A program made the translations under genes and the position numbers. Shown here one piece after another: positions 2,856-34,800 of a stretch of DNA of 64,000 bases; within the stretch, counting starts at the first letter, position 1; every line of letters begins with the position of its first letter. The stretch comes from Phycisphaerales bacterium (lineage in GTDB: Bacteria; Planctomycetota; Phycisphaerae; Phycisphaerales; UBA1924). The notes below the pieces were generated by a model. The model worked only from the letters and a program-made list of their open reading frames with translations. It was not told where the DNA came from and made no database searches. The DNA lies in contig DASPKU010000015.1 in assembly GCA_035627955.1 (NCBI GenBank), forward strand, positions 62,001-126,000. The letters are read 5' to 3'.

Positions 2856-2884
2856 TTCCCCAACCGTGCCCTCTTCATTAGACT
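2856..2884 (+). promoter_or_regulatory. Predicted promoter of the SWIM/MoxR operon, leaderless type
   Basis: TTCCCC (2856-2861), a 17-nt spacer and TAGACT (2879-2884) precede the GTG start at 2892 by only 7 nt. Transcription would begin at or next to the start codon. The element closely resembles the one in front of the HNH gene at 29296-29326. Confidence 0.5.
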
Positions 2885-2891
2885 CCCCTAC

Positions 2892-4247
2892 GTGCAGCCG
2901 CTCACCCAGCAGCAGGTCCTCGCGCTCGCGCCAGATGCTGCCTCTGCCACCGCGGGGCAGGGGCTGTGTGCGCTCAAGAAGTGGACCAGCGTCGGGCGGA
3001 GCGGGCGGGCCGTGTGGGGCCTGTGCCAGGGTTCAGGCAAGGACCCTTACCAGATCCGCGTGGACCTCACCGGCCCGGCGTTCAAGTGCAACTGCCCGAG
3101 CCGCAAGTTCCCCTGCAAGCACGGCCTTGGGCTGATGCTCCTATGGGCAAAGGAACCCAGCGCGTTCAAGGAGCAGGACGAGCCCGGCTGGGTCAGCGAG
3201 TGGATCGAGGGCCGGGCAGAGAAGCAGGAGAAGAAGGTCGAGAAGGCCAAGGCCGTGGCCGAGAAGCCAGTCGACCTCGAGGCCCAGGCGAAGCGCGCGG
3301 CGCAGCGCGATGCGCGCGTCCGCGAAGGCGTAGCGGGGTGCCGCTTGTGGTTGGATGACCTGTTGCGGCGCGGCCTCGCGGCGGCGCGCTCGGGCAGTGC
3401 GCTGAGCGAGATGGAGAAGACAGCCGCTCGACTCGTGGATGCGCAGGCGCCCGGCCTCGCGGGGTATGTGCGGCGCACACCCGAACTGCTCGTCTCAGGT
3501 GATGGCTGGGAGGCGCGAATACTCGACCATCTCTCGCGGCTGCACCTGCTGCTCGCCGCCGCGGAGCAGCTCGGGTCGCTGCCGCCGGAACTGGGCACGG
3601 ACGTCCGCACCGCGCTGGGCTACACGCAGTCGAAGGACGAGGTGCTGGCCGCCCCCGGCGTGCAGGACCGCTGGTGCGTGATCGCGCAGCTGATCGAGGA
3701 GGAGGACCGGTTGCGCTCGCGGCGGACGTGGCTGCTGGGCCGCGGAACGGGCCGGCGAGCCCTCGTCCTGGACTTTGCTGCGGGGCTCCAGCCGCTGGAC
3801 ACGAGCCTCGTCGCAGGCGTGGAGTTTGAGGGCGAAGTAGGGTTCTACCCGTCGCGCCTGCCGCAGCGGGCACTGATCAAGTCGCGCGATGCGGGCGCCT
3901 CCCTCACCCAACTGCCCGAGGGAGCGGCTGACGGTTCAATCGAGGCTGCGCTCAGCGGCTATGCGGGTGCGCTCGCGCAGCAGCCCTGGATGTTCCGGTG
4001 GCCGATGGTGCTCGCGGGGGGGGGGCTTGTGCAGCACGGCAGCAGATGGCTGATCGCGGACAGCTCGGGTGCGGCCCTGCCAATCAGCCCTGCTTTCGCC
4101 CGCACGCTTCACCTTTGGCGACTCCTCTCAGCCACGAGTGGCAGGCCGGCGCTCATCACCGGCGAGTGGGACGGCGAGAACTTCCTGCCCCTCAGCGTGA
4201 TAACTCCGGCGGGGTACGAGGACGTCGCCCCAAGGGGGGCCGCATGA
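2892..4247 (+). CDS. SWIM zinc-finger protein
   Basis: The 451-residue protein carries a SWIM-type zinc-binding motif at residues 66-77 (C-x-C-x6-C-x-H, in CNCPSRKFPCKHGLGL). SWIM domains bind DNA or protein partners. A Lys/Glu-rich, probably helical stretch follows at about 105-135, then a long helical region. It is the first gene of a five-gene operon; its stop overlaps the next ATG in an ATGA. SWIM proteins next to DUF5691 genes are a recurrent pair in actinobacteria and other phyla. No enzymatic motif is visible, so it is best seen as the nucleic-acid or adaptor component. The GTG start has no Shine-Dalgarno sequence but has a -10-like box 7 nt upstream. Confidence 0.85.
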   Translation: MQPLTQQQVLALAPDAASATAGQGLCALKKWTSVGRSGRAVWGLCQGSGKDPYQIRVDLTGPAFKCNCPSRKFPCKHGLGLMLLWAKEPSAFKEQDEPGWVSEWIEGRAEKQEKKVEKAKAVAEKPVDLEAQAKRAAQRDARVREGVAGCRLWLDDLLRRGLAAARSGSALSEMEKTAARLVDAQAPGLAGYVRRTPELLVSGDGWEARILDHLSRLHLLLAAAEQLGSLPPELGTDVRTALGYTQSKDEVLAAPGVQDRWCVIAQLIEEEDRLRSRRTWLLGRGTGRRALVLDFAAGLQPLDTSLVAGVEFEGEVGFYPSRLPQRALIKSRDAGASLTQLPEGAADGSIEAALSGYAGALAQQPWMFRWPMVLAGGGLVQHGSRWLIADSSGAALPISPAFARTLHLWRLLSATSGRPALITGEWDGENFLPLSVITPAGYEDVAPRGAA

Positions 4248-5731
4248 CGCAAGCTGCCGCACAATCACCGCCGCAGGTGCTCAAGCAGCTGATCCCCGGC
4301 GTGCTCGTCGGCCTCAGCCGCGATCAGCAACAGCCGTCTCTAGTGCTCACCCGCGCCGCCCGCGCGGCCACCCGCGCCCGCGCCGGGTTCAAGCCGGTCC
4401 CCGCGGGCACACCGCTGCCCACCTGCCCAGACGACGCCAGCCCCGCCGCAAGCCCCGGCGCAGGCGCAATCCTCGACCGACTGCTCACCGACCCGGACGC
4501 GGGGCTCATCGAAGAATGGGCCACGCTCGCGCAGGATCGCGGCGTTCGTGTCGCTGACCGCAGTGTCACTGACCTTCTCGAGTGGTGGTCCCGCCAGCCG
4601 CGCCGCTCCGAGGCGGTGTTCGCGGCAACTGGCGCACGCGGCCAGTGGCTCGCGTCGCTCAACCCCGAGTGGCGCAAGCCCGTGGCCGTCACCGCCGTCC
4701 CCGCTCACGCGGACGAGTTGTGGCAGACTGGCACTGGCGCAGAACGTGCGGCCCTGCTGACCACGATTCGCCGCCATGACCCGGCCCGGGCCCTCGGGCT
4801 CGTGCGGTCCACGTGGGCCGATGATGGCGCGGACGATCGGCGCCGCTTCATCGACGCCCTGCTCGCAGACGCGTCGATGCTCGACGAGCCGTTCCTCGAG
4901 TCCGCCCTCGATGATCGGGCCAAGAGCGTCCGTCGTGCCGCTGCGGCCGCGCTGATCACGATCCAGGGTTCCCGCCTGCGCGCCCGCATGACCGCGCTCG
5001 CCCGCACCATCATCAAGGCCGACAAGAAGAAGGGTGCACTCACGAGCGGCGTCGTCATCACGCTGGCTCGTCCGGCGGAGTACGACCAAGCTTGGGACCG
5101 CGACGGCATCGAAGAGCAGCCCTCCGGCGGAGGCGGCAAGCGCGCGTGGTGGACCAGGCAGGTCCTGGCGGGAGCCGATCTCAAAGTCTGGACCGAAGTG
5201 TCCGGACTGCCGCCCGAGCGCGTCCTTGAGAGCTTGGACCAGGACGACGTCACCGACGCGCTCGACGCGATCACCCGCGCCGCGCAGCTCGCCCGCAGCC
5301 CCGAGTGGGCTGGCCCCGTCGCCCGCACGGTGCTCGCACTCGAGCCCAAGAAGGTGCTGGAGCTCACCACCCTTTGGCCACTGCTTACCCAGGATGATCA
5401 GGAGGCCCTCGTATCCCGCATCATCGAGGCCCCCAAGCTCACGTTCTACGACGTGCTCGCCGCGCTCGCGGCCCTCCCCGGCCCCTGGTCGCCCGCGCTC
5501 TCCACCCGCATCCTCGCATTGTTCCAGAAGCACGCGACCTCCAAGAAGCCCGACGCCTGGCTGCTCGCCGGTCCCATCGACGCCATGGTCCGCAAGCTCT
5601 CTCCCACTGCCGTGGACGCCATGGAGCAGACCCTCGCCGCAATGTTCAGCGCCGAGTCCAGCAACACGATCCAGAAGACCATCGACAAGCTTCGCCTCCG
5701 GGCGGAGATGCACAAGGAGTTCAAAGCGTGA
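4244..5731 (+). CDS. DUF5691 family protein
   Basis: The 495-residue protein is helical and Ala/Leu-rich, without membrane segments or catalytic motifs I can recognise. Repeated helix pairs around residues 160-260 (for example a stretch with RAAAAALITIQG) look HEAT-like, which would fit a scaffold. The order SWIM-DUF5691 is the known neighbourhood of this family, whose function is unknown. The start at 4244 overlaps the SWIM stop by 4 bp; the frame is open further upstream, but that part lies inside the SWIM gene. The stop overlaps the GTG of the AAA+ gene, implying translational coupling through the operon. Confidence 0.75.
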   Translation: MTQAAAQSPPQVLKQLIPGVLVGLSRDQQQPSLVLTRAARAATRARAGFKPVPAGTPLPTCPDDASPAASPGAGAILDRLLTDPDAGLIEEWATLAQDRGVRVADRSVTDLLEWWSRQPRRSEAVFAATGARGQWLASLNPEWRKPVAVTAVPAHADELWQTGTGAERAALLTTIRRHDPARALGLVRSTWADDGADDRRRFIDALLADASMLDEPFLESALDDRAKSVRRAAAAALITIQGSRLRARMTALARTIIKADKKKGALTSGVVITLARPAEYDQAWDRDGIEEQPSGGGGKRAWWTRQVLAGADLKVWTEVSGLPPERVLESLDQDDVTDALDAITRAAQLARSPEWAGPVARTVLALEPKKVLELTTLWPLLTQDDQEALVSRIIEAPKLTFYDVLAALAALPGPWSPALSTRILALFQKHATSKKPDAWLLAGPIDAMVRKLSPTAVDAMEQTLAAMFSAESSNTIQKTIDKLRLRAEMHKEFKA

Positions 5732-6834
5732 GCAAGACGGCCGCACCCGCACCATCCCCCGCCACGCTCCGGGACACCGCCGAGCGGCAGTTCGCCGCCG
5801 AGCTCGCGGCGCTCCTGAAGGCCGATGACCGCCCGCGCCCGCCGAAGTGGAGGCTGTCACCCTGGGCCGTGGTCACCTACCTCGTCGGCGGCACGCTTGC
5901 CGACGGCACGGTCATCACGCCCAAGTACATTGGCAATCGCCGCCTCATGGAGATCGCCGTCGCCACCCTCGCCACCGACCGCGCACTGCTGCTGCTGGGC
6001 GTTCCCGGCACTGCGAAGAGCTGGGTGAGCGAGCACATCGCCGCGGCTATCAGCGGCGACTCGACTCTCATGGTCCAAGGCACCGCCGGCACGCCCGAAG
6101 AAGCGATCCGCTACGGCTGGAACTACGCCCTGCTGCTCGCCAAGGGCCCGAGCCGAGAGGCCCTGGTCCACAGCCCGGTGATGCGCGGCATGACCGAGGG
6201 CAAGATCGTGCGCGTAGAGGAGCTCACGCGCGTCCCCAGTGATGTGCAGGACACGCTGATCACGATCCTCTCCGAAAAGACGCTGCCCGTCCCCGAGCTC
6301 AACGAAGAGGTGCGCGCGGTCAAGGGCTTCAACATCATCGCGACCGCCAACGACCGCGACAGGGGTGTCAACGAGCTGTCGAGCGCCCTGAAGCGGCGCT
6401 TCAACACCGTCGTGCTCCCCGTGCCCGAGACGATGGACGAAGAGGTGGACATTGTGCAGCGGCGCGTGGTGCAGATGGGCAAGGCCCTCGAGATCCCCGC
6501 GGAGACGCCCGCGATGGATGAGATCCGGCGCGTGGTCACCATCTTCCGCGAGCTGCGCGATGGGAAGACCACGGACGGGAAGAGCAAGCTCAAGCAGCCC
6601 AGCGGCACGCTCAGCACGGCCGAGGCCATCAGCGTCATCACCAACGGGTCCGCGCTCGCGGCCCACTTCGGCGACGGCAAGCTTCGGGCAGCTGACGTCG
6701 CCAGCAGCATCATCGGCGCAATCATCAAGGACCCCGTGCAGGACCGCATCGTGATGCAGGAGTACCTCGAGACGGTGATCAAGGAACGCGACGGCTGGAA
6801 GGACCTGTACCGGGCGTGCAAGGACGTGATGTAA
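5728..6834 (+). CDS. MoxR-type AAA+ ATPase
   Basis: The 368-residue ATPase has a Walker A GVPGTAKS at residues 91-98, a Walker B-like KIVRVEEL, a sensor-1 segment IIATANDRD and an arginine-finger region ALKRRFN. A C-terminal lid follows. MoxR ATPases act as chaperone-like remodellers with VWA-domain partners, here the gene at 9168-10358. The first Walker B acid is replaced (VRVEE in place of the usual DE after four hydrophobics), so the Glu pair probably serves. The GTG start overlaps the upstream stop (GTGA). The gap to the next gene is 3 bp. Confidence 0.9.
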   Translation: MSKTAAPAPSPATLRDTAERQFAAELAALLKADDRPRPPKWRLSPWAVVTYLVGGTLADGTVITPKYIGNRRLMEIAVATLATDRALLLLGVPGTAKSWVSEHIAAAISGDSTLMVQGTAGTPEEAIRYGWNYALLLAKGPSREALVHSPVMRGMTEGKIVRVEELTRVPSDVQDTLITILSEKTLPVPELNEEVRAVKGFNIIATANDRDRGVNELSSALKRRFNTVVLPVPETMDEEVDIVQRRVVQMGKALEIPAETPAMDEIRRVVTIFRELRDGKTTDGKSKLKQPSGTLSTAEAISVITNGSALAAHFGDGKLRAADVASSIIGAIIKDPVQDRIVMQEYLETVIKERDGWKDLYRACKDVM

Positions 6835-6837
6835 TAG

Positions 6838-9171
6838 ATGCCCGGTGAGCTGCACGTTTTTGGGATTCGCCACCACGGGCCAGGTTCGGCCCGCATGGTC
6901 GTGCGCGCTCTCGAGAAGCTGCGGCCGGACGCGGTGCTGGTCGAGGGTCCGCCCGATGCCGCGCAAGTTCTTCCGCTTGCAGCCGCCACGGGCATGAAGC
7001 CGCCCGTGGCGCTGCTGGTGTACGAGCCTGACGAGCCTCGCAATGCGAGCTACTACCCTTTCGCGGAGTTCTCGCCCGAGTGGCAGGCGATCCGCTGGGG
7101 GCAGCAGAACGCGGCGAGGGTGTCGTTTATCGACCTGCCGCAGGCACTGCGGGGTAAGGAACTGCCGAGTTCCGAGTCCCGAGGGCCGGGTCCCGAGTCC
7201 CAAGGGCCGAGCGACAAGAGCGCGCCAGAGCCCAACTCCGAACTCGGAACCCAGCACTCCGCACTCGATCCTCTCGATCAGCTCGCCCTCGCCGCCGGCT
7301 ACCCCGACGGCGAGGCCTGGTGGGGCCGCCTCATCGAGGAACGTCGCGGCGACCACGACCCGCTCGCCGTCTTCGACGCCATCCGCGAAGCGATGGCCGA
7401 GCTCCGCTCCACCCGCGACACTTCACCACCACACTCGGCGCCCGGCACTCGGCCCTCGGCACTCCGTAACGACCCCGATGAGCCCGCCCGAGAGGCCCAC
7501 ATGCGACGCTGCATCCGCGCCGCCCTCAAGGAGCACGAGCGTGTGGCTGTCGTCTGCGGCGCGTGGCACGCGCCGGTGCTCACGGCGGACGCACTGAAGC
7601 ACAAACCCGTGAAGGCCGACGACGAGGTCCTCAGGCCGCTGACGAGGCGCAAGACCACCGCGACCTGGGTGCCCTGGACCTACGACCGCCTGTCCATGTT
7701 CTCCGGTTACGGCGCGGGCGTGCTCAGCCCCGGCTGGTACGAGCACCTCTGGCTCAACCACGCCCGCTTCTCCGAAACCTGGCTCACCAAGGTCGCGCGC
7801 CTCATGCGCGACGAGGACCTCGACGCATCGCCCGCGAGCGTGATCGAGGCTGTCCGCCTCGCCGACTCCCTCGCCGCTCTCCGCGGCCACTCTATCGCCG
7901 GCCTGCCCGAGCTCAGTGAGGCCACCCTGGCCATCCTCTGCCACGCGAACCCGCTCCCGATGAAGGTCATTGAGCGCAAGCTCATCATCGGCGTGCGCCT
8001 TGGAGAGGTGCCCGAGGACGCCCCCGCCGTTCCGCTCCAGCGCGACCTCGCTGCGGAGCAGAAGTCGCTCCGCCTCAAGGTCACCGCCGACGATCAGCTC
8101 CTCGACCTCGACCAGCGCAAGGACATCGACCTCGCGCGCAGCCGACTCCTGCACCGCCTCGCAATCCTCGGCATTCCTTGGGGCAAGCTCGAGGCCGACC
8201 AGCGTCAACGCGCCAGCTCGTTCCACGAGGTCTGGCGCCTGCAATGGAGGGCCGACTTCGCCGTCGCGGTGATCGAGGCCGCACGGTACGGCAATACGGT
8301 GCTCGACGCCGCGGCCGCCTGCGTCCGCCACCACACCCAGCATGCTTCCAGCCTCGCCGCGCTCACGACGATGCTCGACCACGTCATGCTCGCGGACCTT
8401 CCCGCAGCCGTGGAGCACCTCGTCGCGCGCATCCAGGAGCTCTCCGCCGTCGGCGCAGATGTGGGCACTCTGATGGTGGCGCTCCCGCCGCTCGCACGCG
8501 TGCTCCGATATGGCAACGTCCGCAAAACCGACGCCGCGCTCGTGGCGCCGCTCGTGGCAGGGCTGCTCACCCGGATCTGCACCGGCCTGCTCCCGGCTTG
8601 CGGGGCGCTCGATGACGACGCCGCGCACGCCATGCGGAGCCGCATCGACGACGTGCAGGGCTCACTCTCGATGCTCGACGACCCCGCCCTGACAACCCCG
8701 TGGCACGATGCTCTCCGACGGGTCGGCAACGCCGACATGCACGGCCTGGTTGTCGGCCGCTGCTGGCGCATCCTGCTCGACTCGGGGGCCTCATCGACCG
8801 AGGATGCCTCCGGCCACCTCTCGCTCGCGCTCTCGCCCGGCAACGACCCCGCCAAGGCCTCGGCCTGGCTCGAGGGTTTCCTTGCCGGATCGGGCATGGT
8901 GCTCGCTCACGACGACCGCCTGCTCGCCATCATCGACCAGTGGGTCACAACGCTGCGGCCGGAGATCTTCGATCAGGTCTGCCCGATTGCCCGCCGCACG
9001 TTCTCGAGCTTTGAGCCCCCAGAGCGCCGGCAGATCGGCGAGCGTCTCAAGCGCGCGGGCGCACCCGGCCCCACAACAACCACCCACGCAGCAGCAGTTG
9101 AAGACTACGACCCCGCCCGCGGCTCGCTGGTGGAACCCGTTCTCAACCTCATCCTCGGGAAGGAAGCATGA
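6838..9171 (+). CDS. DUF5682 family protein
   Basis: The 777-residue cytosolic protein begins with HVFGIRHHGPGSA and then PDAVLVEGPPDA, the hallmark N-terminus of DUF5682. These are paired strands with His and Glu that could form an active site, though no activity is established. A long helical C-terminal half follows. It is the largest member of the operon, between the MoxR ATPase and the VWA protein, the usual place of this family. Oddly, the coding sequence is interrupted in frame by arrays of a 7-bp repeat at 7165-7269 and 7433-7467. These encode disordered Pro/Ser/Glu-rich linkers around residues 110-144 and 199-210. Its stop overlaps the ATG of the VWA gene. Confidence 0.8.
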   Translation: MPGELHVFGIRHHGPGSARMVVRALEKLRPDAVLVEGPPDAAQVLPLAAATGMKPPVALLVYEPDEPRNASYYPFAEFSPEWQAIRWGQQNAARVSFIDLPQALRGKELPSSESRGPGPESQGPSDKSAPEPNSELGTQHSALDPLDQLALAAGYPDGEAWWGRLIEERRGDHDPLAVFDAIREAMAELRSTRDTSPPHSAPGTRPSALRNDPDEPAREAHMRRCIRAALKEHERVAVVCGAWHAPVLTADALKHKPVKADDEVLRPLTRRKTTATWVPWTYDRLSMFSGYGAGVLSPGWYEHLWLNHARFSETWLTKVARLMRDEDLDASPASVIEAVRLADSLAALRGHSIAGLPELSEATLAILCHANPLPMKVIERKLIIGVRLGEVPEDAPAVPLQRDLAAEQKSLRLKVTADDQLLDLDQRKDIDLARSRLLHRLAILGIPWGKLEADQRQRASSFHEVWRLQWRADFAVAVIEAARYGNTVLDAAAACVRHHTQHASSLAALTTMLDHVMLADLPAAVEHLVARIQELSAVGADVGTLMVALPPLARVLRYGNVRKTDAALVAPLVAGLLTRICTGLLPACGALDDDAAHAMRSRIDDVQGSLSMLDDPALTTPWHDALRRVGNADMHGLVVGRCWRILLDSGASSTEDASGHLSLALSPGNDPAKASAWLEGFLAGSGMVLAHDDRLLAIIDQWVTTLRPEIFDQVCPIARRTFSSFEPPERRQIGERLKRAGAPGPTTTTHAAAVEDYDPARGSLVEPVLNLILGKEA
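7165..7269 (+). repeat. Heptanucleotide tandem repeats, inverted pair of arrays
   Basis: Seven units of a CCGAGTC-like heptamer fill 7165-7213. After 21 bp, five units of the complementary ACTCNGN heptamer fill 7235-7269, so the two arrays could form a long hairpin. All of it lies inside the DUF5682 gene without breaking the frame. Confidence 0.8.
7433..7467 (+). repeat. Third heptanucleotide array
   Basis: There are five units: ACTCGGC, GCCCGGC, ACTCGGC, CCTCGGC and ACTCCGT. They have the same unit and orientation as the 7235-7269 array and also lie inside the DUF5682 gene. Confidence 0.75.
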
Positions 9172-10358
9172 CGACGCCCCCGCCCATCGACCCGCAGGAA
9201 CGGCTCAAGCGCTGGCGCATGCTCCTGGGCGGCGACGCCTCCGACGGGATCGGTATCCGCCTCACCGGGCGCGACGAGGCAATGGACAACGCCATGAGCG
9301 CGCTCTACGACCCCAAGCCGGGCATGGGCGGCGGCCGGCGCGGCGGGCTCGGCGCGTCGGCCCCCACTGCCGCCCGCTGGCTCGGCGACATCCGCGAGTA
9401 CTTCCCCAGCTCCGTTGTGCGCGTCATGCAGAAGGACGCCATCGACCGACTTGGCATGAGCAGCCTCCTCCTTGAGAAGGAGATGCTCGACGCGATCACA
9501 CCGGACATCCACCTCGTGACCACGCTTATGTCATTGAGTGGCGTGATCCCGCAGAAGGCGAAGGCCACTGCCCGGCTCATCGTGCAGCGCGTCGTTCGCG
9601 ATCTCCAGAAGAAGCTGGACGCGCCCATGCGTCAGGCCGTTATCGGGGCGCTCAAGCGCTCCACCCGCACCCGCCGCCCTCGCCACGGCGAGATCGATTG
9701 GAACCGGACGATCCGCGCCAACCTCAAGCACTACCAGCCCGAGTACAGGACCATCGTCCCTGAGACCCGCATCGGGTACGGCCGCAGGCGGAACGAGCTC
9801 CGCACCATCATCGTGTGCATCGACCAGTCCGGCTCCATGGGCCAGAGCGTCGTCTACTCAGGTGTTTTCGGCGCCGTGCTCGCGTCGATCCCCGCCCTCC
9901 GGTCGCATGTGGTTGCGTTTGACACCAGCGTCGTCGACCTCACCGAGAAAATGGCGGACCCTGTCGACGTGCTCATGGGCGTGCAGCTGGGCGGCGGCAC
10001 CGATATCAACCGCGCGCTCGCCTATTGCGAAACCCTCATCAACCGCCCCCGCGACACCATCTTGGTACTCATCACGGACCTTTACGAGGGCGGCGACAAC
10101 GCCCAGATGCTCAAACGGGCCGCGTCGATCGCCGGCTCGGGCGTCAAGTTCGTCACCCTGCTCGCCCTCGGCGACACCGGCGCCCCAACGTTCGATCAGA
10201 ACAATGCCGCGGCCATGGCGAGCTTCGGTATCCCCAGCTTCGCCTGCACGCCCGACCGCTTCCCCGACCTCATGGCCGCGGCCATCCAGGGGCGGGACCT
10301 CGGCCAATGGGCCGCCGAGCACGACCTCGCTACCGCCCGCCCGCACGCGACCGTCTGA
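9168..10358 (+). CDS. VWA (CoxE-like) domain protein
   Basis: The 396-residue protein has a C-terminal von Willebrand A domain with a complete metal-ion-dependent adhesion site. D219-x-S221-x-S223 (DQSGS) starts at about residue 219, the Thr lies in GGGTD and the Asp in ITDLYEGG. No signal peptide or membrane helix is present, so it acts in the cytoplasm. VWA proteins of this kind are the classical partner of MoxR ATPases, encoded 2.4 kb upstream. The N-terminal 200 residues are helical and family-specific. It is the last gene of the operon: the gene overlaps DUF5682 by 4 bp, and the next gene (rtcR) converges from the other strand only 21 bp beyond. Confidence 0.88.
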   Translation: MTTPPPIDPQERLKRWRMLLGGDASDGIGIRLTGRDEAMDNAMSALYDPKPGMGGGRRGGLGASAPTAARWLGDIREYFPSSVVRVMQKDAIDRLGMSSLLLEKEMLDAITPDIHLVTTLMSLSGVIPQKAKATARLIVQRVVRDLQKKLDAPMRQAVIGALKRSTRTRRPRHGEIDWNRTIRANLKHYQPEYRTIVPETRIGYGRRRNELRTIIVCIDQSGSMGQSVVYSGVFGAVLASIPALRSHVVAFDTSVVDLTEKMADPVDVLMGVQLGGGTDINRALAYCETLINRPRDTILVLITDLYEGGDNAQMLKRAASIAGSGVKFVTLLALGDTGAPTFDQNNAAAMASFGIPSFACTPDRFPDLMAAAIQGRDLGQWAAEHDLATARPHATV

Positions 10359-10379: not shown

Positions 10380-11984
10380 TCAGCTCGCGCGCACCACGCC
10401 CGCCGTGCTGCTGTCCCACTTGAGCCCGAACCGCGCCAGGTACTTCCTGAGGCGGTCCGCATCGTTCAGGCTCGTGCGCTGTGCGCGCGACTGACTGAAC
10501 AGCTGACGCCCCGCTTCCGACAAGGTCCCGCACACTGCACACACGGTCAGCACATCCGCCAGTTGCACACGATCGAAACGATCCAGCTTCGATGCCTCCT
10601 GTTCACCGAGCGCCCGCGCGCACGGGTCCTCGCCCGGACCCGCGCCCGACCACCCCTGCCGCAGCCGTCCCACCTCCGCCGCGACGACCTCCTCCGTGAT
10701 CCTCCCACTCGCGGAGAGCGTCGCCATCCGCGTCACCGACGCCGAAAGATCCCGGAAGTTGCCCGCCCAGACCGCATCCGCGCTGGTGGCAAACCGCAGG
10801 TACGCAGCGCGGGCCTCAGTGCTGAACCGAACCGTCCTCCCCGTGCGCTTTGCGTACTGGTTGAGCTCATAGTCCAGGTTCGGCTCGATGTCCTCGACAC
10901 GCTCGCGCAGCGCCGGCAGGCAGAACGTCCACAGGTTGATCCGCGCCAGCAGGTCGTCGCGGAACTCACCCGAGCGCACCCGCGTCAGCAGGTCTCGATT
11001 CGTCCCCGCGATCAGCTGGAACTCGCTCGAGACCTCGTGGTCCGCGCCCAGGGGCATGAACCGCTTCTCCTCGATCGCCCGCAGCAGCATCGCCTGCTCG
11101 TCCAGCCCCAGCTCGCCGATCTCGTCCAGGAACAGCACGCCCTTGTCCGCCGAGCGCAGCAGCCCCGGCCGGTCGCTCGCCGCGCCGGTGAACGCGCCCT
11201 TCCTGTGCCCGAAGAGCGTGGACATCGCCGCGTCCCCGCGGATCGTCGCGCAGTTCACCTCCACGAAGGCCCCCGTCACCAGGTTCCGGTGCCGCCGCAA
11301 CTCGTACACGCGCCGCGCCAGCTGGCTCTTGCCGGCGCCCGTGGGCCCCATCAGCAGCATCGGGTCTGCCGAGTTCGCGGCGACGTGCTCGACCTCCTCG
11401 ATGAGCCGGTTGAACGTCCGGTTCCGCGTCGCGATCCCCGACTTCAGCCCAGTGATGTTGTCCTTGAACTCGCGCTGGAACCGGGCCGCGATGCGGTGGT
11501 ACTTCGACAAGTCCAGATCGATGACCTTGTACTCACCCTCGCTCCCCGCGTGCTTGTTCCGGGGGCTGGTCTGGATCAGCTTCGCCGGGAACTTCCGCGT
11601 CTCGGTCAGCAGGAACAGGCAGATCTGCGCCACGTGCGTGCCGGTTGTGATGTGGATGTAGTAGTCCTCGCGCTCCGTGTCGAAGGGGTACTGGTCCGCG
11701 AAGTCGTGCAGCGCGGTGTACACCTCCTCAAAGTCCCACGGATCGCTCGGGTTGACCAGGTGGCACTTGACCTCCGTCTCCGGCGACACCTGCTTGATGT
11801 CCTCGCACACCGTCCGCGTCAGGCTCTCCGCCATGCGCGGGTAGAGCAGCTCCAGCCGGTCGACCGCGAGGTCCTCCTGCTGACACAGCGACACCGTGGG
11901 CCGCCACCGCTCCCAGCGCTTCTCGTTGCGCCCGGTATCCAGCGTCGTGCCCAGCAGCCCGATCACCACCGTCTTGCGACCCAT
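10380..11984 (-). CDS. rtcR: RtcR, CARF-domain sigma54-dependent activator of RNA repair genes
   Basis: The 534-residue activator has three parts. The N-terminal CARF-type ligand-sensing domain includes HITTGTHVAQICLFLL at about 111-126. The AAA+ sigma54 domain has Walker A GPTGAGKS at 213-220 and the RNA-polymerase-contacting GAFTGA loop at 263-268. The C-terminal part is a putative DNA-binding region. RtcR is held off by its CARF domain until RNA-damage products are sensed, then drives sigma54 transcription of rtc genes. It is divergent from rsr, whose upstream region has a sigma54 promoter (12114-12130). I chose the ATG at 11984 because GGAGG sits about 6 nt upstream; a GTG at 11999 lies in frame within that region. 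Confidence 0.95.
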   Translation of the reverse strand: MGRKTVVIGLLGTTLDTGRNEKRWERWRPTVSLCQQEDLAVDRLELLYPRMAESLTRTVCEDIKQVSPETEVKCHLVNPSDPWDFEEVYTALHDFADQYPFDTEREDYYIHITTGTHVAQICLFLLTETRKFPAKLIQTSPRNKHAGSEGEYKVIDLDLSKYHRIAARFQREFKDNITGLKSGIATRNRTFNRLIEEVEHVAANSADPMLLMGPTGAGKSQLARRVYELRRHRNLVTGAFVEVNCATIRGDAAMSTLFGHRKGAFTGAASDRPGLLRSADKGVLFLDEIGELGLDEQAMLLRAIEEKRFMPLGADHEVSSEFQLIAGTNRDLLTRVRSGEFRDDLLARINLWTFCLPALRERVEDIEPNLDYELNQYAKRTGRTVRFSTEARAAYLRFATSADAVWAGNFRDLSASVTRMATLSASGRITEEVVAAEVGRLRQGWSGAGPGEDPCARALGEQEASKLDRFDRVQLADVLTVCAVCGTLSEAGRQLFSQSRAQRTSLNDADRLRKYLARFGLKWDSSTAGVVRAS

Positions 11985-12012
11985 CACCCACCTCCACACG
12001 CCCGCCGGCGGG

Positions 12013-12028
12013 CCTTATCCATTCGGAT
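12013..12028. promoter_or_regulatory. Palindrome, candidate RtcR upstream activator site
   Basis: TTATCC-ATTC-GGATAA is a perfect 6-bp inverted repeat. It lies 29 bp from the rtcR start and about 86-100 bp upstream of the sigma54 promoter of rsr, the typical distance for an enhancer. Assignment to RtcR is inference. Confidence 0.45.
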
Positions 12029-12113
12029 AACCACTCTATCAGATCGGCTCGTCCGCGCGAGCACTTCCCCGGGTCCACCCTCATTCCCGCCGCAGGAAAG
12101 CGGTTTCGGCCTC

Positions 12114-12130
12114 TGGCACGCCGCTCGCAA
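12114..12130 (+). promoter_or_regulatory. Sigma54 (-24/-12) promoter of the rsr-rtcB operon
   Basis: TGGCACG-CCGC-TCGCAA matches the sigma54 consensus TGGCACG-N4-TTGCW with one mismatch, and has the obligatory GG-N10-GC spacing (GG 12115-12116, GC 12127-12128). The predicted start near 12140 leaves a leader of about 70 nt before rsr. Confidence 0.85.
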
Positions 12131-12208
12131 TGCATCTCCCCATCGCCCGCACGGCCGCAGTGGCCGCGGGATGCCGGGCCCCACCAGGGCCCGAACCGGA
12201 GGTGCCCC

Positions 12209-13786
12209 ATGGCCAACAAGTCGCTCTTCCAGTCCACCCTCGCCCGCCTGCTCCCCGAGGCCGACACCGTCAACGAGGCGCGCGGCATCGCCTACAAGCT
12301 CAGCCCCAAGCAGATGCTCGCGCAGTACGCCGCGACCGGCTGCCTCAACTCCACGTTCTACGCCAGCGCCGAGGACCAGCTCAAGATCGTGATCGACCTC
12401 GCCTCCGCCGTGGAGCCCGAGTTCGTCGCCAAGGTCGCGCTGTACACCCGCAGCAAGAGCCACATGAAGGACATGCCGGCCCTGCTCGTCGCGGTGCTCA
12501 GCGTGGTGTCCCCCGGCCTCATGGCCGAGGTGTTCGACCGCGTGATCGACAGCCCGAAGATGCTCCGCAACTTCGTGCAGATCATGCGCTCGGGCGCCGT
12601 GGCGCGCAAGAGCCTGGGCACCCTGCCCAAGCGCCTCGTGCTCCAGTGGCTCGAGACCCGCACCGACGAGCAGCTCTTCCGCGCTTCGGTCGGCAACGAC
12701 CCGTCGCTCGCGGACATCATCAAAATGGTCCACCCCAAGCCCCTCACCGCGTCCCGCGCGGCCCTGTACGGCTACATCCTCGGCAAGCCCCACAACGTGG
12801 AAGACCTGCCCGAGCTCGTGAAGCAGTACGAGGCCTTCAAGGCGAACCCTTCGATGTTCACCAGCAGCGACATGCCTGACGTCCCCATGGACATGCTGAC
12901 CGGCCTGGCGCTCGAGAAGCGCCACTGGATGGCCCTGGCCCGCAAGGCGTCTTGGCAGCAGCTGCGGATGAACCTCAACACCTTCACGCGTCACGACGCG
13001 TTCAAGGACGGGAGCATCGTGCCGCAGCTGGCCGCGAAGCTCCGCAGCCCCGTGGAGGTGGCGAATGCGCGCGTGTTCCCGTACCAGCTCATGGCCGCGT
13101 ACGCGAACACGGGGGATGACGTGCCGCGCGGCCTGCGCGAGGCGCTCCAGGACGCGATGGAGGTCGCGGTCGGCAACGTGCCGGCGATCGACGGGCGCGT
13201 CTGGGTGCTCCCCGACGTGTCGGGCTCCATGCAGTCCCCGGTGACGGGGCACCGCAAGGGCTCGACCACGAAGGTGCGGTGCATCGACGTGGCGGCGCTC
13301 GTGAGCGCGGCGGTCCTGCGGAAGAACCCGCAGGCCCGGGTCCTCCCCTTCTCCGACGACGTCCTGAAGGCGGACCTCAACCCGCGCGACAGCGTGATGA
13401 CCAACGCCCAGCGGCTGGCGAGCCTGCCGTCGGGCGGGACCAACTGCTCGGCGCCGCTCGCGTGGCTCAACCGCCACAATGAGAAGGCCGACCTGGTGAT
13501 CTTCGTCTCGGACAACGAGTCGTGGGTCGACAGCAAGGGCTTCTCGGGACTCTCCCGCTCGACCGCCACCATGGACGAGTGGGCGAAGTTCAAGCGTCGC
13601 AACCCCGCGGCCAAGCTCGTGTGCCTGGACATCCAGCCCCACGGCTCGACCCAGGCCCATGAGTCCTCCGACATCCTGAACATCGGCGGCTTCGCCGACT
13701 CGGTGTTCAGCGTGATCGCGGCCTTCCACAGCAACACGCTCGGCCCCAACCACTGGGTCGGCGTGATCGAACAGGAGACGATCTGA
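12209..13786 (+). CDS. rsr: Rsr, bacterial Ro60 / TROVE-domain RNA-binding protein
   Basis: The 525-residue protein is an ortholog of Ro60. Residues 1-320 form the alpha-helical HEAT-like TROVE ring that encircles misfolded RNA ends and binds Y RNAs on its outer surface. Residues 330-525 form a VWA domain with a MIDAS motif D336-x-S338-x-S340 (PDVSGS). In bacteria, Rsr works with Y RNAs and exoribonucleases in RNA quality control and is often encoded with rtcB under RtcR. Here it is the first gene after a sigma54 promoter, with CGGAGG 6 nt before the ATG. Four Y-RNA-like structures follow immediately downstream, which strongly supports the assignment. The length is normal. Confidence 0.95.
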   Translation: MANKSLFQSTLARLLPEADTVNEARGIAYKLSPKQMLAQYAATGCLNSTFYASAEDQLKIVIDLASAVEPEFVAKVALYTRSKSHMKDMPALLVAVLSVVSPGLMAEVFDRVIDSPKMLRNFVQIMRSGAVARKSLGTLPKRLVLQWLETRTDEQLFRASVGNDPSLADIIKMVHPKPLTASRAALYGYILGKPHNVEDLPELVKQYEAFKANPSMFTSSDMPDVPMDMLTGLALEKRHWMALARKASWQQLRMNLNTFTRHDAFKDGSIVPQLAAKLRSPVEVANARVFPYQLMAAYANTGDDVPRGLREALQDAMEVAVGNVPAIDGRVWVLPDVSGSMQSPVTGHRKGSTTKVRCIDVAALVSAAVLRKNPQARVLPFSDDVLKADLNPRDSVMTNAQRLASLPSGGTNCSAPLAWLNRHNEKADLVIFVSDNESWVDSKGFSGLSRSTATMDEWAKFKRRNPAAKLVCLDIQPHGSTQAHESSDILNIGGFADSVFSVIAAFHSNTLGPNHWVGVIEQETI

Positions 13787-13827
13787 TGCAGTCAGACAAT
13801 CAGTGACATAGTCCCCGCCTCGCTTGG

Positions 13828-13921
13828 CACGCGGGCGGGGTCCGGGCCGAATGCTCCTGGGACTACATTCAAGTTGTAACGTCTCATGAACACCTCGTCG
13901 GCCCGGACCCCGTCCCGCGTG
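13828..13921 (+). ncRNA. Y-RNA-like RNA, copy 1 (simple hairpin)
   Basis: A very long outer stem pairs 13828-13850 with 13898-13921 (23 bp plus one bulged A), ending in GGGCCGA / TCGGCCC. It is followed by the internal-loop motif AATGC, an inner stem TGGGAC (13858-13863) / GTCTCA (13881-13886) and a 17-nt loop starting TACA. The same order of motifs occurs in the three following copies. The position right after rsr and the bulged Ro-type stem point to a Y RNA. There is no tRNA-like part. Confidence 0.75.
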
Positions 13922-13932
13922 GGATAGCAAAT

Positions 13933-14011
13933 GTCGGTCGGACGCGGCGAATGCCGGTGGGAGTACATCCAACAACCCTCTCACCAACCACTCGTCGCCG
14001 CGGCGGCCACA
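13933..14011 (+). ncRNA. Y-RNA-like RNA, copy 2 (simple hairpin)
   Basis: The outer stem is CGCGGCGA (13943-13950) / TCGCCGCG (13995-14002). The motif ATGCC comes next, then the inner stem GGTGGGAG (13956-13963) / CTCTCACC (13978-13985) with one G-U pair, and a 14-nt loop starting TACA. Its 5' half is nearly identical to copy 3, but the tRNA-like insert is absent. The ends are estimated from the pairing. Confidence 0.75.
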
Positions 14012-14044
14012 GAGAAAGCAAGGAGCAGCGATCACATGATCGAC

Positions 14045-14160
14045 GGTCGGACGCGGCGAATGCCGGCGGGAGTACATTGGTCGCGCGCAAGCGCTCGCGG
14101 GTTCGAATCCCGCCCCGGGTAACCGGGAAGCTCTCGCCAACCTTGTCGCCGCGGAGGACC
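14045..14160 (+). ncRNA. Y-RNA-like RNA, copy 3, with T arm and capped acceptor-like stem
   Basis: The outer stem is GGTC plus CGCGGCGA (14045-14059), pairing with TCGCCGCG plus GACC (14146-14160) across a 3x3 internal loop. The inner stem GGCGGGAG (14065-14072) pairs with CTCTCGCC (14131-14138). The apical part contains a perfect tRNA T arm (GCGGG-TTCGAAT-CCCGC, 14097-14113). Directly stacked on it is a CCCGG/CCGGG helix closed by a GTAA (GNRA-class) tetraloop (14114-14127), which takes the place of an acceptor stem. A D arm is missing. Confidence 0.8.
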
Positions 14161-14188
14161 GCTGAACTTGAGGAAACGAGCGGCCGTC

Positions 14189-14358
14189 GGTGTGCGACGG
14201 TCCACGACGAATGCCCTGATGGGAGTACACCTTAAGGAGGTCCAGGTCGCGGGTTCGAGTCCCGCCAGATCCGCTTCAACACGCACGGGTCTGTAGCTCA
14301 GTGGTAGAGCGGGAAAAAACCTCTCATCGCCCTTCGTCGTCGTGGACCGACACACACC
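14189..14358 (+). ncRNA. Y RNA (YrlA-like), copy 4, with circularly permuted tRNA-like module
   Basis: The outer stem is GGTGTG and GGTCCACGACGA (14189-14210), pairing with TCGTCGTGGACC and CACACC (14337-14358). The inner stem is GATGGGAG (14218-14225) / CTCTCATC (14321-14328). Enclosed in order are a T arm GCGGG-TTCGAGT-CCCGC (14249-14265), an acceptor 3' strand CAGATCC (14266-14272), a 14-nt linker, an acceptor 5' strand GGGTCTG (14287-14293), TA as in U8-A9, and a D arm GCTC-AGTGGTA-GAGC (14296-14310). The two acceptor strands pair over 7 bp with one G-U. This is a tRNA read from its anticodon side, as described for Salmonella-type YrlA tRNA mimicry. It ends 20 bp before rtcB. Confidence 0.88.
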
Positions 14359-14378
14359 AGCCCAATGGAATCATCAAC

Positions 14379-15935
14379 ATGACCACCGACCCCGACACCC
14401 CCAGCTCACCTGCCGTCACGGCCCCCGCCGCGACGACCAGCACGCCGCCCTCACCGTTCATCGAGACCGGCGAGGCCACGGCCATCCTCCCAGTCGCCAA
14501 CGGCAAGACGCCGCCCATCACCGTGATCGCCACCAAGGCGATCCGCGACGGCTTCGACACGCTCTGCATCCAGCAGGCGATCAACTCGCGCCTCGCCCCC
14601 GGCGTCACCGACATCATCCTCAACCCCGACGCCCACGCCGGCTACGGCGCGCCCATCGGCTGCGTGCTCGTCTCACCCACGCACATCTACCCCGGCCCTG
14701 TCGGCGTCGACATCAAGTGCAGCTTGAGCCTGCTCCAGCTCGACATCCCCGAGGACGTCATCGCCGACAAGAAGCTCCGGCGCGCCCTCATCAACGCCAT
14801 CCTCGAGCGCACCCCCACCGGCACCGGCCGCGGCCAGCGCGAGGCCCGCAAGGGCCGCTACGTGGACGCCACGCTCGGCCAGCGTGTCGTAACCGAGGGC
14901 GCCTCCGCGGGCGTGCTCACCGAGCTCGGCATCCCCACCGAGTGGGCCCAGCGCTGCGAGGACAGCCACCACCTGGGCCACGACGGCACCGCTGACGCCC
15001 TGCGCGAGCGGCTCGCCCGCCACACCGCGGCCCCGCAGGCCTACGAGCTTTTCGCCAGCAAGATCCGCCAGCTGGGCTCCTACGGCGGCGGCAACCACTT
15101 CGGCGAGGCCGAGGTCGTGCACGTCGAGGACACCGAGCGCGCCCGCACCGCCGCGGAGGTCTTCGGCCTGCGCGACCGGCACGTCGCTTTCCTCTCCCAC
15201 TGCGGCAGCCGCGGCTGGGGTGCCCTCCTGGCCGACGGCCAGTTCAAGGCCATGAACCAGAAGTTCGCGACCTGGGGCATCCAGCTCCCCGGCGGGGACC
15301 GCCACATGGTGCACGCGCCGCTCGGCACGCCCGAGGCCGACGCGTACCTCGACGACATGGCCATGGGCGCGAACTTCGCGACCGTCAACCACATGCTCAT
15401 CAACGCGCTCGTGCTCGAGGCTTTCCAGGAAGTGCTCCCGGGCACCAGGGGCCACCTCGTTTACTTCATCAGCCACAACATCGCCCGCCAGGAGATCGTC
15501 AACAACAAGCCCGCGTGGGTGCACCGGAAAGGCGCCACCCGCGCGTTCCCCGCGGGCCACCACGCACTGCGCGACACGCCCTTCGCGTCCACCGGCCACC
15601 CGATCCTCCTGCCGGGCAACCCCCAGGACGGCTCGAGCGTCATGGTCGCCGAGCCCGGCGCGTCGCTCTCCTGCTACAGCGTCAACCACGGCGCCGGCCG
15701 CCGCATGAGCCGCACGGCCGCGAACAAGACCCTCGACCAGAGGTCCATCGATGCGAGCTTCGACGCCGCGGACATCCTCACCAACTGCCGCAACTACCCG
15801 CGCGACGAAGCACCCCGCGCGTACAAGGACTTCGAAGAGGTGCTCCGCAGCGTCAAGCAGGCCGGCCTCGCCAGCGAGGTCGCCCGCCTCAAGGCCCGCT
15901 TCGTGATCAAAGACAGCGACAAGGCCGACGACTGA
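14379..15935 (+). CDS. rtcB: RtcB, RNA-splicing ligase
   Basis: The 518-residue GTP- and Mn-dependent ligase joins 2',3'-cyclic-phosphate (or 3'-phosphate) RNA to 5'-OH RNA. Metal-ligand motifs are visible: VGVDIKC (D111, C114), GGGNHFGE, and LSHCGSRGWG. NHGAGRRMSR carries the nucleophilic His that becomes guanylylated. It is longer than E. coli RtcB, with an extra N-terminal 25-30 residues rich in Pro/Thr/Ala. The ATG at 14379 is the sensible start: upstream in-frame codons fall within the Y RNA. No clear Shine-Dalgarno sequence is visible, so translation may be coupled to RNA processing. Co-transcription with rsr and the Y RNAs from the sigma54 promoter is inferred. Confidence 0.95.
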   Translation: MTTDPDTPSSPAVTAPAATTSTPPSPFIETGEATAILPVANGKTPPITVIATKAIRDGFDTLCIQQAINSRLAPGVTDIILNPDAHAGYGAPIGCVLVSPTHIYPGPVGVDIKCSLSLLQLDIPEDVIADKKLRRALINAILERTPTGTGRGQREARKGRYVDATLGQRVVTEGASAGVLTELGIPTEWAQRCEDSHHLGHDGTADALRERLARHTAAPQAYELFASKIRQLGSYGGGNHFGEAEVVHVEDTERARTAAEVFGLRDRHVAFLSHCGSRGWGALLADGQFKAMNQKFATWGIQLPGGDRHMVHAPLGTPEADAYLDDMAMGANFATVNHMLINALVLEAFQEVLPGTRGHLVYFISHNIARQEIVNNKPAWVHRKGATRAFPAGHHALRDTPFASTGHPILLPGNPQDGSSVMVAEPGASLSCYSVNHGAGRRMSRTAANKTLDQRSIDASFDAADILTNCRNYPRDEAPRAYKDFEEVLRSVKQAGLASEVARLKARFVIKDSDKADD

Positions 15936-31360: not shown

Positions 31361-31818
31361 TTGAGACTCCGAGACTTTGCGATCAACCCCGCAAGCTCTG
31401 CGCGCCAACCTGCTTCCGAAGCGCTGTAGTACACTGTTCCGATATACGTGCCCGCGAACTGCTTCTCGAGCAGCACCTTCAACTCCGGGAGCGTGATCCT
31501 ACCCTCACCTGGGGCAAAGAACGACTCGAACCCAGTCACAATGATCACTTTGGTCCGGATCCCCATTCGCACCACTTCCGCCAGTATCTCCCTTCCCGCA
31601 TAGGCGCGGGGCCGGCCTCCCGGTGCCCCGTCCTGCACATCGAAGGTCGGCATGGTCATATCGAGCAGCACCAGGTCAGGTACCGTCTCCACAATCTGCT
31701 CTAAGCCGCTCTGATAAGACCTCCGCTGCGCAATCTCGGCATCTCCGAGCTCAGCACGCACCAGATCGGTGATCTGCCGGAGTTTGGGAAGATCGTCCTC
31801 CACGACCAGTACTTTCAT
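31357..31818 (-). CDS. dtcB: DtcB-like stand-alone receiver protein
   Basis: The 153-residue response-regulator receiver has acidic residues E7/D8/D9, phosphoacceptor D53 in VLLDMTMP, the conserved Thr in VIIVTGFE and a Lys candidate near 112. No output domain is present. In Detocs, the corresponding lone receiver serves as a phosphate sink that buffers accidental activation of the effector. It overlaps the neighbouring genes by 4 bp at both ends, so the three proteins are translationally coupled. Confidence 0.85.
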   Translation of the reverse strand: MKVLVVEDDLPKLRQITDLVRAELGDAEIAQRRSYQSGLEQIVETVPDLVLLDMTMPTFDVQDGAPGGRPRAYAGREILAEVVRMGIRTKVIIVTGFESFFAPGEGRITLPELKVLLEKQFAGTYIGTVYYSASEAGWRAELAGLIAKSRSLK

Positions 31819-34800
31819 GCCCGTACCCTTTCAATCGGAAGTGCCATACGAGAACAGAACTGCCTCGCGTCGTTGACCCACCAGCGCACCGAGTAGCTGT
31901 CGCCAAGCTCAAGGTCATGTCGCATGATCCGGTGAAGCTTGAAGAAGCCGGTGCCACCTTCCGTTCGCACAGGGATCTCGCCGGCCTCTGTCAAGCGCTG
32001 CTCAAGTTCATTGAGCTTCTCCTGGATCGACTCGGGCGACGGAGAATCTGGGACCGGACTGTTGAGCTCCACCACTAGCGATTCTCCTTCGATCATCGCT
32101 CGGATTGCGACCAATGCCTCACTTCCAGACGAGTGCCGCACAACATTCTCGACTAGAATGTGGATGGCATCGAAGAGGGGCGCAAAGTGCTTCCCGGAAC
32201 ACAACCCCTCGACGTGAACGTCGACTTCGGCTTTGAGGCTGACTGATCGAGCCGAGCGACCAACCATAGTTGTGACCGTCTCCACCAAATCGACGAAGCG
32301 GAAATCGGGCATTTCTCTTTCGTTGACGATTCGGAACCAATCAGCCATCGCGGTGAGTGCGTTGTGCAGTTCGGTGTTGCACTGGACTACCGCTTGACGG
32401 AAGGCCCCGCGAAGGTCAGGCGCTGCCTGGAGTACGTCGGATTGGCATCGCTCCATAGCTGCAAGGAACATAGCAAATAACTCGTCAGTGATCCTTGCTC
32501 GTACCCGCTCTAGAATCTGCTCCGTCCGCGAGGTCAACTCTGCGATACACTGAGTCACAAACTCGGCCAGCGAGGTCGTCTTGGCCAGTGTGATAAACAT
32601 TTGGGTCAACTGGTGGTCATCGTAGCTGAAATCGAACATCCCCTTTGCGTCGGCGGTGTTCTCTCGCAGTTGAATCCACTCATTCTTCACCCGGTCGATA
32701 ATCGCATCGACAGCCGCTGAGAAGGCGGCTAGTGCTTTCTGAACACCGTCCCTCACGGACTGGGGCGCGCTCTCGAGATGTGCGGCCCAATGTTCGTTCA
32801 CACGGTACTCACCATCGGTGTTTCGCCGAGTAACCAGGTTTAGGGACTCGAACGTACTTCTGAGATGGCCGCTCAAGGTCCCGTGGCGGATCCGAATGCT
32901 CAGGTATGAATCGAGTCCGTGCTCATTGCTCGATACAAATTTCGCACGCAATTCGTTGAACATCTGAGTGCAAAGCACTTGGGCCGTATCGCCTAGCACC
33001 AGTTGGGCACGGCCTTGTCCAACATCCAGAATGGCCATGGATACCCGGCGAAGGTGAGCCCCGAGCTGAACGTGATCGCGGAATCGCTCAAATGTGGGTT
33101 GAATAGCCGTCTCGAGCGACTTGCGAATCCCCGACACATCGACGTATATCTTGCTTGCGTCGATGTGCTTTATTCCCTTTCGGATCACGCTTCGGCGGCT
33201 GAGCTCCGTGATCTCGGCGAAGTACTCGTCGCTATGCGAGGGATCCGCCTTCATCAGAAACTGGCATATGTTGATGCGTTCCTGTTCAAGGGCGTCGAGG
33301 CTCTCAAAACGATATGAGTGGTCCAAGACCTCCAACACGCAAACGTGGCGTAGCAAAAAAAGAAGCGGAGGTGAAGGAGCCTCAGTCTGACTCAATATGT
33401 CGCTCGGAATTCGGCGACCCGATTTCCGGAGAAAATCGTCCAACGCCGTGAATACCTTGTAGGCGTTCTGTAGCTGCCCCCGGTCCGTGTGGCGAAGGTA
33501 GAATATTATTGGCCAGGAGACACTACCCTTCTCCGCCTTGCCCTCTAGATAGCGGGCTGTCAACTCCTCGAAATGAAGCGCTGGCGCAAGCGAAGGCTGG
33601 GCGAAATAGGCATCGACCGCGATGTCCGCGGCCGAGGTGTACCTGCCGAGCAGATACTCCGTGAGAACAAGTCCAGCGAAGGCATCTTCCAAAACTGTGA
33701 TTCGGCCGTCCGCAATCTCCTTCAATGCACGATATTTGGCGGCGGCCCCCTCGAGGTCGCCATCGCGCTCGCATTGACGCGCCTCATGCTTCAACGCTCG
33801 CTCACGAGGAATGTCGGTGACTGAGTGCAAGCCTCCGAAAAGACGAACGGCGGTCGGAGCGGCACCTACGCTTGCGCATGCCGACAGGAAGCGATCGACC
33901 TCACTCCGCGAGCGGTACAGTCCGCCGAATCGTGGCGTCAGTTCGCATTGGTTGATTGCGAGGAATCTGGAGGCGTCCATTCCGTTCGGGGATGGTCGAT
34001 ACCGCGTACAAAAGGCGTGCACCTGTAGCCCGAACTGCGTGCAGTCGAACATGTAGGCCACCTTGTGCAGATAGCGCAATGCCACATCTGTTGACGGGGT
34101 TTTGGCGACAACGTGATATAGAGCCCACAAAACCTCAGTTGAAACACTGCTGTCCTTGACTGGCTCTGCCAGTCCGGCGTTCGCGGCGGCCTTTGCGAAA
34201 AGCTCGTGGAACTCGAACGCGTGAGGAAAGGCCGCAGCTCCCGCGCGTGCTACCTCAGAAGCCTTCGGATAATCTCCCTTCGTGTAATACTCAACCGCAT
34301 CAAACAGCATTGTCCCACGCTTGGTAGAAACGATCCCCGCTCCTGGCTCACAAAGCTGGTGTAGGTTTGCGATTCGCTGGTCGGGGATGGCTGACCGAAG
34401 TATGGCAAGAAGGTCTCGCGTGCGCGGTGGCGCATTCCAGACGCCTTTCGCGGCAGTCGCCTGGAGCAGACGCACGGCGTGATCGTAAGCGTCCACAAGG
34501 GAGTGCTGGCCCGTGTACCACAATGAGAATGCATCGGACTTGGTGGGATCGGCCGAGAACAGCAGCACTTTCAGCCGGAAGTACGCAAGAATTGGTGCAA
34601 GCTCGGGCTTGCCTTCGTGTTGTTGAATGACTGAGTTGAAGAATTGGTCGAACGCTGCCGGGTGAGCTTTCGGTTCCAATCGCTGTGCGACAAACTCCAA
34701 GAGCAATCGCACGTTGTTATACTGGGCTTCCTCTTGGAAGGTCTGCACTGTTTTTCGGAGCGCCGCCAAGCCCCCCTCGATCGCACTCACTAGCATTCTG

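Follow-up and report, generated by a model that had tools for sequence, protein, structure and literature searches.

Five genes lie close together on the forward strand at positions 2892–10358 of the 64,000-nt stretch of DNA analysed here, which we refer to as the window. The genes, and a possible promoter element in front of them, are as follows:

2879..2884, + strand: TAGACT, possible leaderless −10 box (from the sequence; 7 nt before the GTG of the SWIM gene)
2892..4247, + strand: SWIM zinc-finger protein (GTG start, 451 aa; ORF and CxC-x6-CxH motif)
4244..5731, + strand: DUF5691 HEAT-like repeat protein (ATG start, 495 aa; Pfam and fold matches)
5728..6834, + strand: MoxR AAA+ ATPase, YehL subfamily (GTG start, 368 aa; Pfam AAA_5 and identity to YehL)
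6838..9171, + strand: DUF5682 protein, YehM-like (ATG start, 777 aa; Pfam, identity to YehM and structural model)
9168..10358, + strand: VWA_CoxE protein, YehP-like, with intact MIDAS (ATG start, 396 aa; Pfam and identity to YehP)

Three of the junctions between these genes, as read from the sequence, are 4-bp overlaps (ATGA, GTGA and ATGA), and a 3-bp gap precedes the DUF5682 gene, which confirms the coordinates and the tight packing of the five ORFs described in the first-pass annotation of this DNA. Pfam scores are 332 bits for DUF5691, 837 bits for DUF5682, 133 bits for AAA_5, and 176 bits for VWA_CoxE. The same annotation proposed that the operon is driven by a leaderless promoter. The TAGACT box stands in favor of this idea: of the window's 1741 ATG/GTG codons in + orientation, only 4 have a TAnnnT element 5–8 nt upstream. 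Against it, a promoter scan upstream of the operon found no sigma-70 promoter, and we regard a putative leaderless promoter at the SWIM GTG as plausible only. Further upstream of this GTG, a tRNA-Gly gene ends at position 2818. A tRNA-borne mobile island was considered and rejected: the 3′ end of the tRNA-Gly has no second copy in the window, and most of 21 other loci have no tRNA directly 5′ of the set. Elsewhere in the window, G+C content drops to 0.56–0.61 between positions 30000 and 36000, compared with about 0.69 in the remainder, and GC skew switches sign; a 1155-aa ORF (31815–35282, − strand) lies inside this low-G+C stretch. Positions 54615–63992 (− strand) contain a very long ORF, of 3125 aa.

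The MoxR protein has an intact Walker A motif in the alignment, while its Walker B motif, flagged as modified in the first-pass annotation, carries E-E instead of the usual D-E (R-x-E-E-L-T-R). This substitution is present in 81 of 81 aligned homologues, and it might lower ATP hydrolysis. The VWA protein (VWA_CoxE, 176 bits) retains its MIDAS, with DxSxS...T...D conserved (D, S, and S in 81 aligned rows, and D in 81), in keeping with its initial designation. The zinc-finger call for the SWIM protein also holds, even though its SWIM Pfam score of 19.0 bits is just under the 19.6 cut-off: the CxC-x6-CxH motif is kept in 65/65 homologues that have letters at that place. A model of a fused SWIM homologue has a pLDDT of 88, and a beta-rich C-terminal half is predicted for the SWIM protein. 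Comparison of this protein with HIN/OB domains gives Foldseek probabilities of 0.85–0.89 at a weak E value of about 0.15; the C-terminal half may therefore resemble the tandem OB folds of HIN domains, which we offer as a lead only. The proposed HEAT-like scaffold is borne out by fold comparison, in which DUF5691 matches alphaRep/HEAT solenoids (Foldseek probability 1.00).

Three of the five proteins have homologues encoded by the yehLMPQ operon of Escherichia coli MG1655. MoxR is 41% identical to YehL over 352 aa (E 2e-78), DUF5682 is 30% identical to YehM, and the VWA protein is 35% identical to YehP, with the three genes in identical order. Seven MoxR subfamilies are recognised, and YehL represents one of them (PMC3893208). 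Because of the homology of MoxR, DUF5682, and VWA to YehL, YehM, and YehP, the five-gene operon is assigned, on sequence grounds, to the MoxR YehL-subfamily sets. The E. coli operon also includes a SWIM protein, YehQ, although its gene comes last there and first in the window set, and YehQ gives no significant alignment with the window SWIM protein beyond the SWIM motif, such that the two are not treated as orthologues. Two further differences are that the E. coli control genome yielded no DUF5691 match, and that a large DUF4132 gene, yehI, is located upstream instead. Among 5426 E. coli genomes, 5162 (95%) carry at least 80% of yehLMPQ. The genome-reduced strain DGF-298 is without yehLMPQ (PMC10652928), and the operon is therefore dispensable in the laboratory. 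In the literature searched, no function is described for yehLMPQ, and yehM appears only in lists: it is among copper-evolved mutations (PMC12409786), and Shigella sonnei lineages have a deletion involving yehM (PMC12795559).

The set is widespread. DUF5682 has at least 567 relatives in GTDB representative genomes, and we surveyed the loci of the best 80 of these using profiles built for this analysis. The order SWIM-DUF5691-MoxR-DUF5682-VWA is found in most of these 80 loci; 59 of them have enough flanking sequence, and 53 of those 59 contain all five genes. The set occurs in Planctomycetota, Cyanobacteria, Chloroflexota, Pseudomonadota, Verrucomicrobiota, Armatimonadota, Bacteroidota, Actinomycetota, and Acidobacteriota; Deinococcota and Rhizobium also appear among plasmid records, and about ten phyla are represented altogether. 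Within Planctomycetota its distribution is patchy, with the set in 33/343 genomes and in 3/61 close relatives.

Several observations show that the five genes are one functional unit, as the first-pass annotation supposed from a single locus: they occur together across loci, and they are co-inherited in Planctomycetota. Full-length DUF5691 is found in 11 of the 343 Planctomycetota genomes, all 11 of which also have DUF5682 (Fisher p about 8e-13, relative to all DUF5682 carriers and with phylogeny ignored). In one genome (G083), DUF5691 and DUF5682 are 347 kb apart, and wherever DUF5682 is solitary at its locus, DUF5691 is kept elsewhere in the genome (6/6 such genomes). Since co-inheritance persists without linkage, a joint function is strongly supported. 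Natural variants indicate which parts can be exchanged. DUF5682 and VWA form a single ORF in four loci (L009, L126, L128, and L129), and five loci have a SWIM-DUF5691 fusion. Other planctomycetes have a different protein in place of DUF5691 between SWIM and MoxR, with a HEAT_2 match in some of them, and in locus L136 a SWIM-HEAT_2 fusion is located 3′ of the VWA gene. DUF4132-like proteins are found with MoxR-DUF5682-VWA in Streptomyces and in two planctomycetes. From these variants we derive a recipe of MoxR, VWA, and DUF5682, mostly supplemented by SWIM and HEAT-like proteins. The only recurrent direct neighbor of the set is DUF4132, seen in loci of the Chitinophaga type as well as in E. coli and Streptomyces. 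A planctomycete genome (G330; L126, 1957–16000) has two distinct MoxR-DUF5682-VWA sets separated by about 8 kb, and in one of them DUF5682 and VWA are fused.

The N-terminus of the DUF5682 protein was described in the first-pass annotation as having conserved His and Glu residues, and indeed R11, H12, and E36, as well as E81, D99, E167, R218, and H244, are invariant in 34 diverse members; these residues persist in both subtypes, solitary copies included. Structure prediction, which had been suggested as a check, yielded an AlphaFold model of the whole protein with a mean pLDDT of 88. The N-terminal 300 residues of the model follow the order strand-His, helix, strand-Glu, with a strand-GAWH further on, and residues 430–745 form an alpha-solenoid according to structure matches. 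Fold searches were less productive for the N-terminus: with the whole 777-aa model, Foldseek and VIA report the solenoid alone, and the absence of TIKI structures from these results excludes nothing. A sequence search of solved structures with DUF5682 gave no match. Profile comparison points to a specific relationship. With a DUF5682 profile built from the 34 diverse N-termini, and TraB/ChaN-like profiles built from planctomycete genomes, hhalign probabilities are 71–84% for TraB and 90% for ChaN, versus 0.2–0.4% for controls from four unrelated families. The erythromycin-esterase profile does not match (0.6%), and for type I DUF5682 members alone, the probabilities for TIKI-type profiles fall to 3–21%. 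In a Pfam scan of the 34 members, TraB_PrgY_gumN is matched by four (best E 0.0012) and is the sole other family matching more than one; ChaN is matched by one. Thus, the N-terminus (residues 1–300) is a well-supported candidate for a remote relative of the TIKI/TraB/ChaN families, an assignment backed by sequence profiles, the order of the motifs, and predicted secondary structure rather than by three-dimensional comparison, because whole-model searches report solenoids alone.

Enzymes of the TIKI superfamily use His and Glu residues, although the catalytic set is missing in some members (PMC6254334). This precedent, and the fact that the exact catalytic set of DUF5682 is putative, leave room for a catalytically dead, TIKI-like scaffold in a machine that would only remodel. 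We consider this very unlikely, given that H12, E36, H244, and E81 are invariant in the 34 members of both subtypes, and scaffolds rarely keep such residues.

The reading we favor is that the five genes specify a single protein machine driven by ATP, in which a MoxR-VWA remodeller is coupled to a hydrolase of the TIKI type and the SWIM and HEAT-like proteins act as adaptors; we judge the chances of this being right and wrong to be about equal. The YehL-type MoxR ring and the VWA protein would form a remodelling pair of the usual kind, MoxR-VWA pairs being chaperone-like remodellers (PMC3893208, PMC7159879). The VWA protein would dock the ring onto DUF5682, a link drawn from the natural DUF5682-VWA fusions, on the basis of which physical coupling of these two proteins is well supported. 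The TIKI/TraB/ChaN-like domain of DUF5682 would be the sole catalytic candidate besides the ATPase, most likely cleaving a peptide or ester bond, and the C-terminal solenoid would serve as a binding platform. SWIM and the HEAT-like DUF5691 would handle recognition, delivering a specific protein or nucleoprotein as the target. Finally, ATP hydrolysis would either remodel the target or open the hydrolase. A more ambitious version, in which MoxR-VWA powers or gates a TIKI-fold peptidase acting on SWIM/HEAT-chosen targets, and which would make the set a new class of ATP-dependent machine represented in E. coli by yehLMPQ, is put forward tentatively, and we think it rather unlikely to hold in full.

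The main rival to the remodeller-hydrolase reading is a maturation chaperone, in which DUF5682, or a different enzyme, would be activated or loaded with a cofactor by MoxR and VWA, in the manner of NorQ-NorD, CbbQ-CbbO, and CoxD-CoxE. This would cast DUF5682 as a client enzyme and not as an effector gated by ATP. The CoxE type of the VWA protein fits this idea, as does the presence of DUF5682 at some loci without its neighbors, and complex maturation has been credited to MoxR proteins (PMC3893208). It is also in line with NorQ being, together with midasin, among the solved structures closest to MoxR by sequence; NorQ-type solved relatives match MoxR much more weakly than YehL does. Against the idea, no substrate-enzyme or cofactor gene recurs beside the set among the neighbors examined, and genomes with a solitary DUF5682 still hold DUF5691. 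On balance, we consider a maturation chaperone with DUF5682 as its client unlikely.

The first-pass annotation hinted that the set might be an NTP-dependent conflict system, which would make DUF5682 an anti-phage effector and SWIM/HEAT the sensor. A few matches lean this way. The bpMoxR model for ternary conflict systems gives MoxR a weak match (27.8 bits against a cut-off of 27), the PDC-S62 candidate model is matched by 3/30 SWIM/HEAT proteins (best E 4.8e-9), and the PADLOC models SWIM_XIII and HEAT-ARM_XIII show that SWIM/HEAT pairs exist in a candidate defence system. The patchy distribution in Planctomycetota could also fit. However, the five window proteins have no meaningful PADLOC match, third components and variable effectors are missing, and the components do not vary as conflict-system effectors do. 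The suggested check on co-location with defence islands came out negative: PADLOC families matched by 120 neighbors number 8, versus 43 for 120 random ORFs, in a control that covered Planctomycetota with simple ORF calls, and an association with defence islands is accordingly rejected for that sample. No relative was confirmed in viral contigs; all 94 pattern matches in IMG/VR proved not to be relatives, which rules against a phage origin. An unannotated faecal “Bacteriophage sp.” record, possibly a bacterial contig, encodes a 29% identical protein. Near-universal conservation had been named as an observation that would speak against a conflict role; it is seen in E. coli, where 5162/5426 genomes have the yeh genes, but not in Planctomycetota, where the set is patchy. 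Taken together, the five-gene set does not resemble a system devoted to phage defence, and we regard a conflict function as distinctly improbable. Most likely, the set plays an accessory part in stress or in processing.

Directly downstream of the set, at window positions 10380–15935, are genes for RtcR (− strand), a Ro60/Rsr-like protein (+ strand), and RtcB (+ strand). A sigma-54-like site (TGGCACGCCGCTCGCA, 12114–12129) is located upstream of Ro60, and four tandem YrlA-like Y RNAs lie between Ro60 and RtcB (13844–14346), with scores of 53.5, 36, 25, and 25 bits, each of which falls short of the Rfam gathering score. At the corresponding place, locus L017 has a single, above-threshold YrlA (74.6 bits) beside a predicted tRNA-Arg. 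The set could conceivably be a partner of this RNA-repair locus, acting on damaged RNA-protein complexes. It adjoins RtcR/Ro60/RtcB in both the window and L017, albeit on different sides, and RtcR is somewhat more common in Planctomycetota with DUF5682 (9/32 vs 41/311, p 0.03). Nonetheless, p rises to 0.06 once the window is excluded, adjacency is seen in no other locus or genome examined, the sigma-54-like site is upstream of Ro60 only with none upstream of the operon, and the E. coli yeh region is without an rtc gene. We therefore treat the RNA-repair locus as a neighbor, a partnership being highly improbable.

At least hundreds of bacterial species carry the set, and, as the first-pass annotation had surmised, no function for it is described in the literature searched, where we found no mention of DUF5682 or DUF5691. 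The component families are already known, as is the MoxR-VWA operon as a kind; what appears to be undescribed in the literature searched is the assignment to TIKI, the recipe of five parts, and the dispersed co-inheritance. The TIKI-like domain in DUF5682/YehM points to H12, E36, and H244 (window numbering) as residues to mutate, and since this can be done in a laboratory strain, a long-standing y-gene question becomes directly testable.

Comparison with other known systems places the set among MoxR-VWA operons while setting it apart from each. NorQ-NorD, CbbQ-CbbO, and CoxD-CoxE likewise combine a MoxR ATPase with a CoxE-like VWA protein, but the MoxR of the set belongs to another subfamily, and the set adds SWIM, HEAT, and TIKI-like proteins; we know of no counterpart of the SWIM/HEAT pair in those three systems. 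The PADLOC SWIM_XIII/HEAT-ARM_XIII proteins, which we take to be accessories of type XIII retrons, also place a SWIM protein beside a HEAT/ARM protein, whereas the five-gene set has no reverse transcriptase, and neither model matches the window SWIM protein, DUF5691, or 28 further SWIM/HEAT proteins. A separate HEAT-ARM and SWIM pair that does match SWIM_XIII (E 8e-189) and HEAT-ARM_XIII is found in locus L037 (17112–20644), about 4 kb downstream of a five-gene set, with no visible reverse transcriptase in the 22-kb locus. MoxR-vWA ternary conflict systems (PMC7159879) share the MoxR and vWA core and a chaperone-like logic, but a Pfam search of the five window proteins finds no VMAP, iSTAND, beta-propeller, or variable effector domains, and the five-gene set is uniform across phyla. 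DUF5682 resembles the TIKI/TraB/ChaN families in having a His that ends strand 1, a Glu that ends strand 2, and a GxxH after a later strand, as well as in its N-terminal profile, which is similar to those of TraB and ChaN; it differs in being fused to a solenoid of ~300 residues, in its tie to MoxR-VWA, and in having no match to the erythromycin-esterase branch. The logic of the proposed MoxR-VWA/TIKI machine would be analogous to that of AAA+ proteases, with an unrelated catalytic part. If catalysis is confirmed, this would be, to our knowledge, the first MoxR-VWA machine tied to a TIKI-type hydrolase fold.
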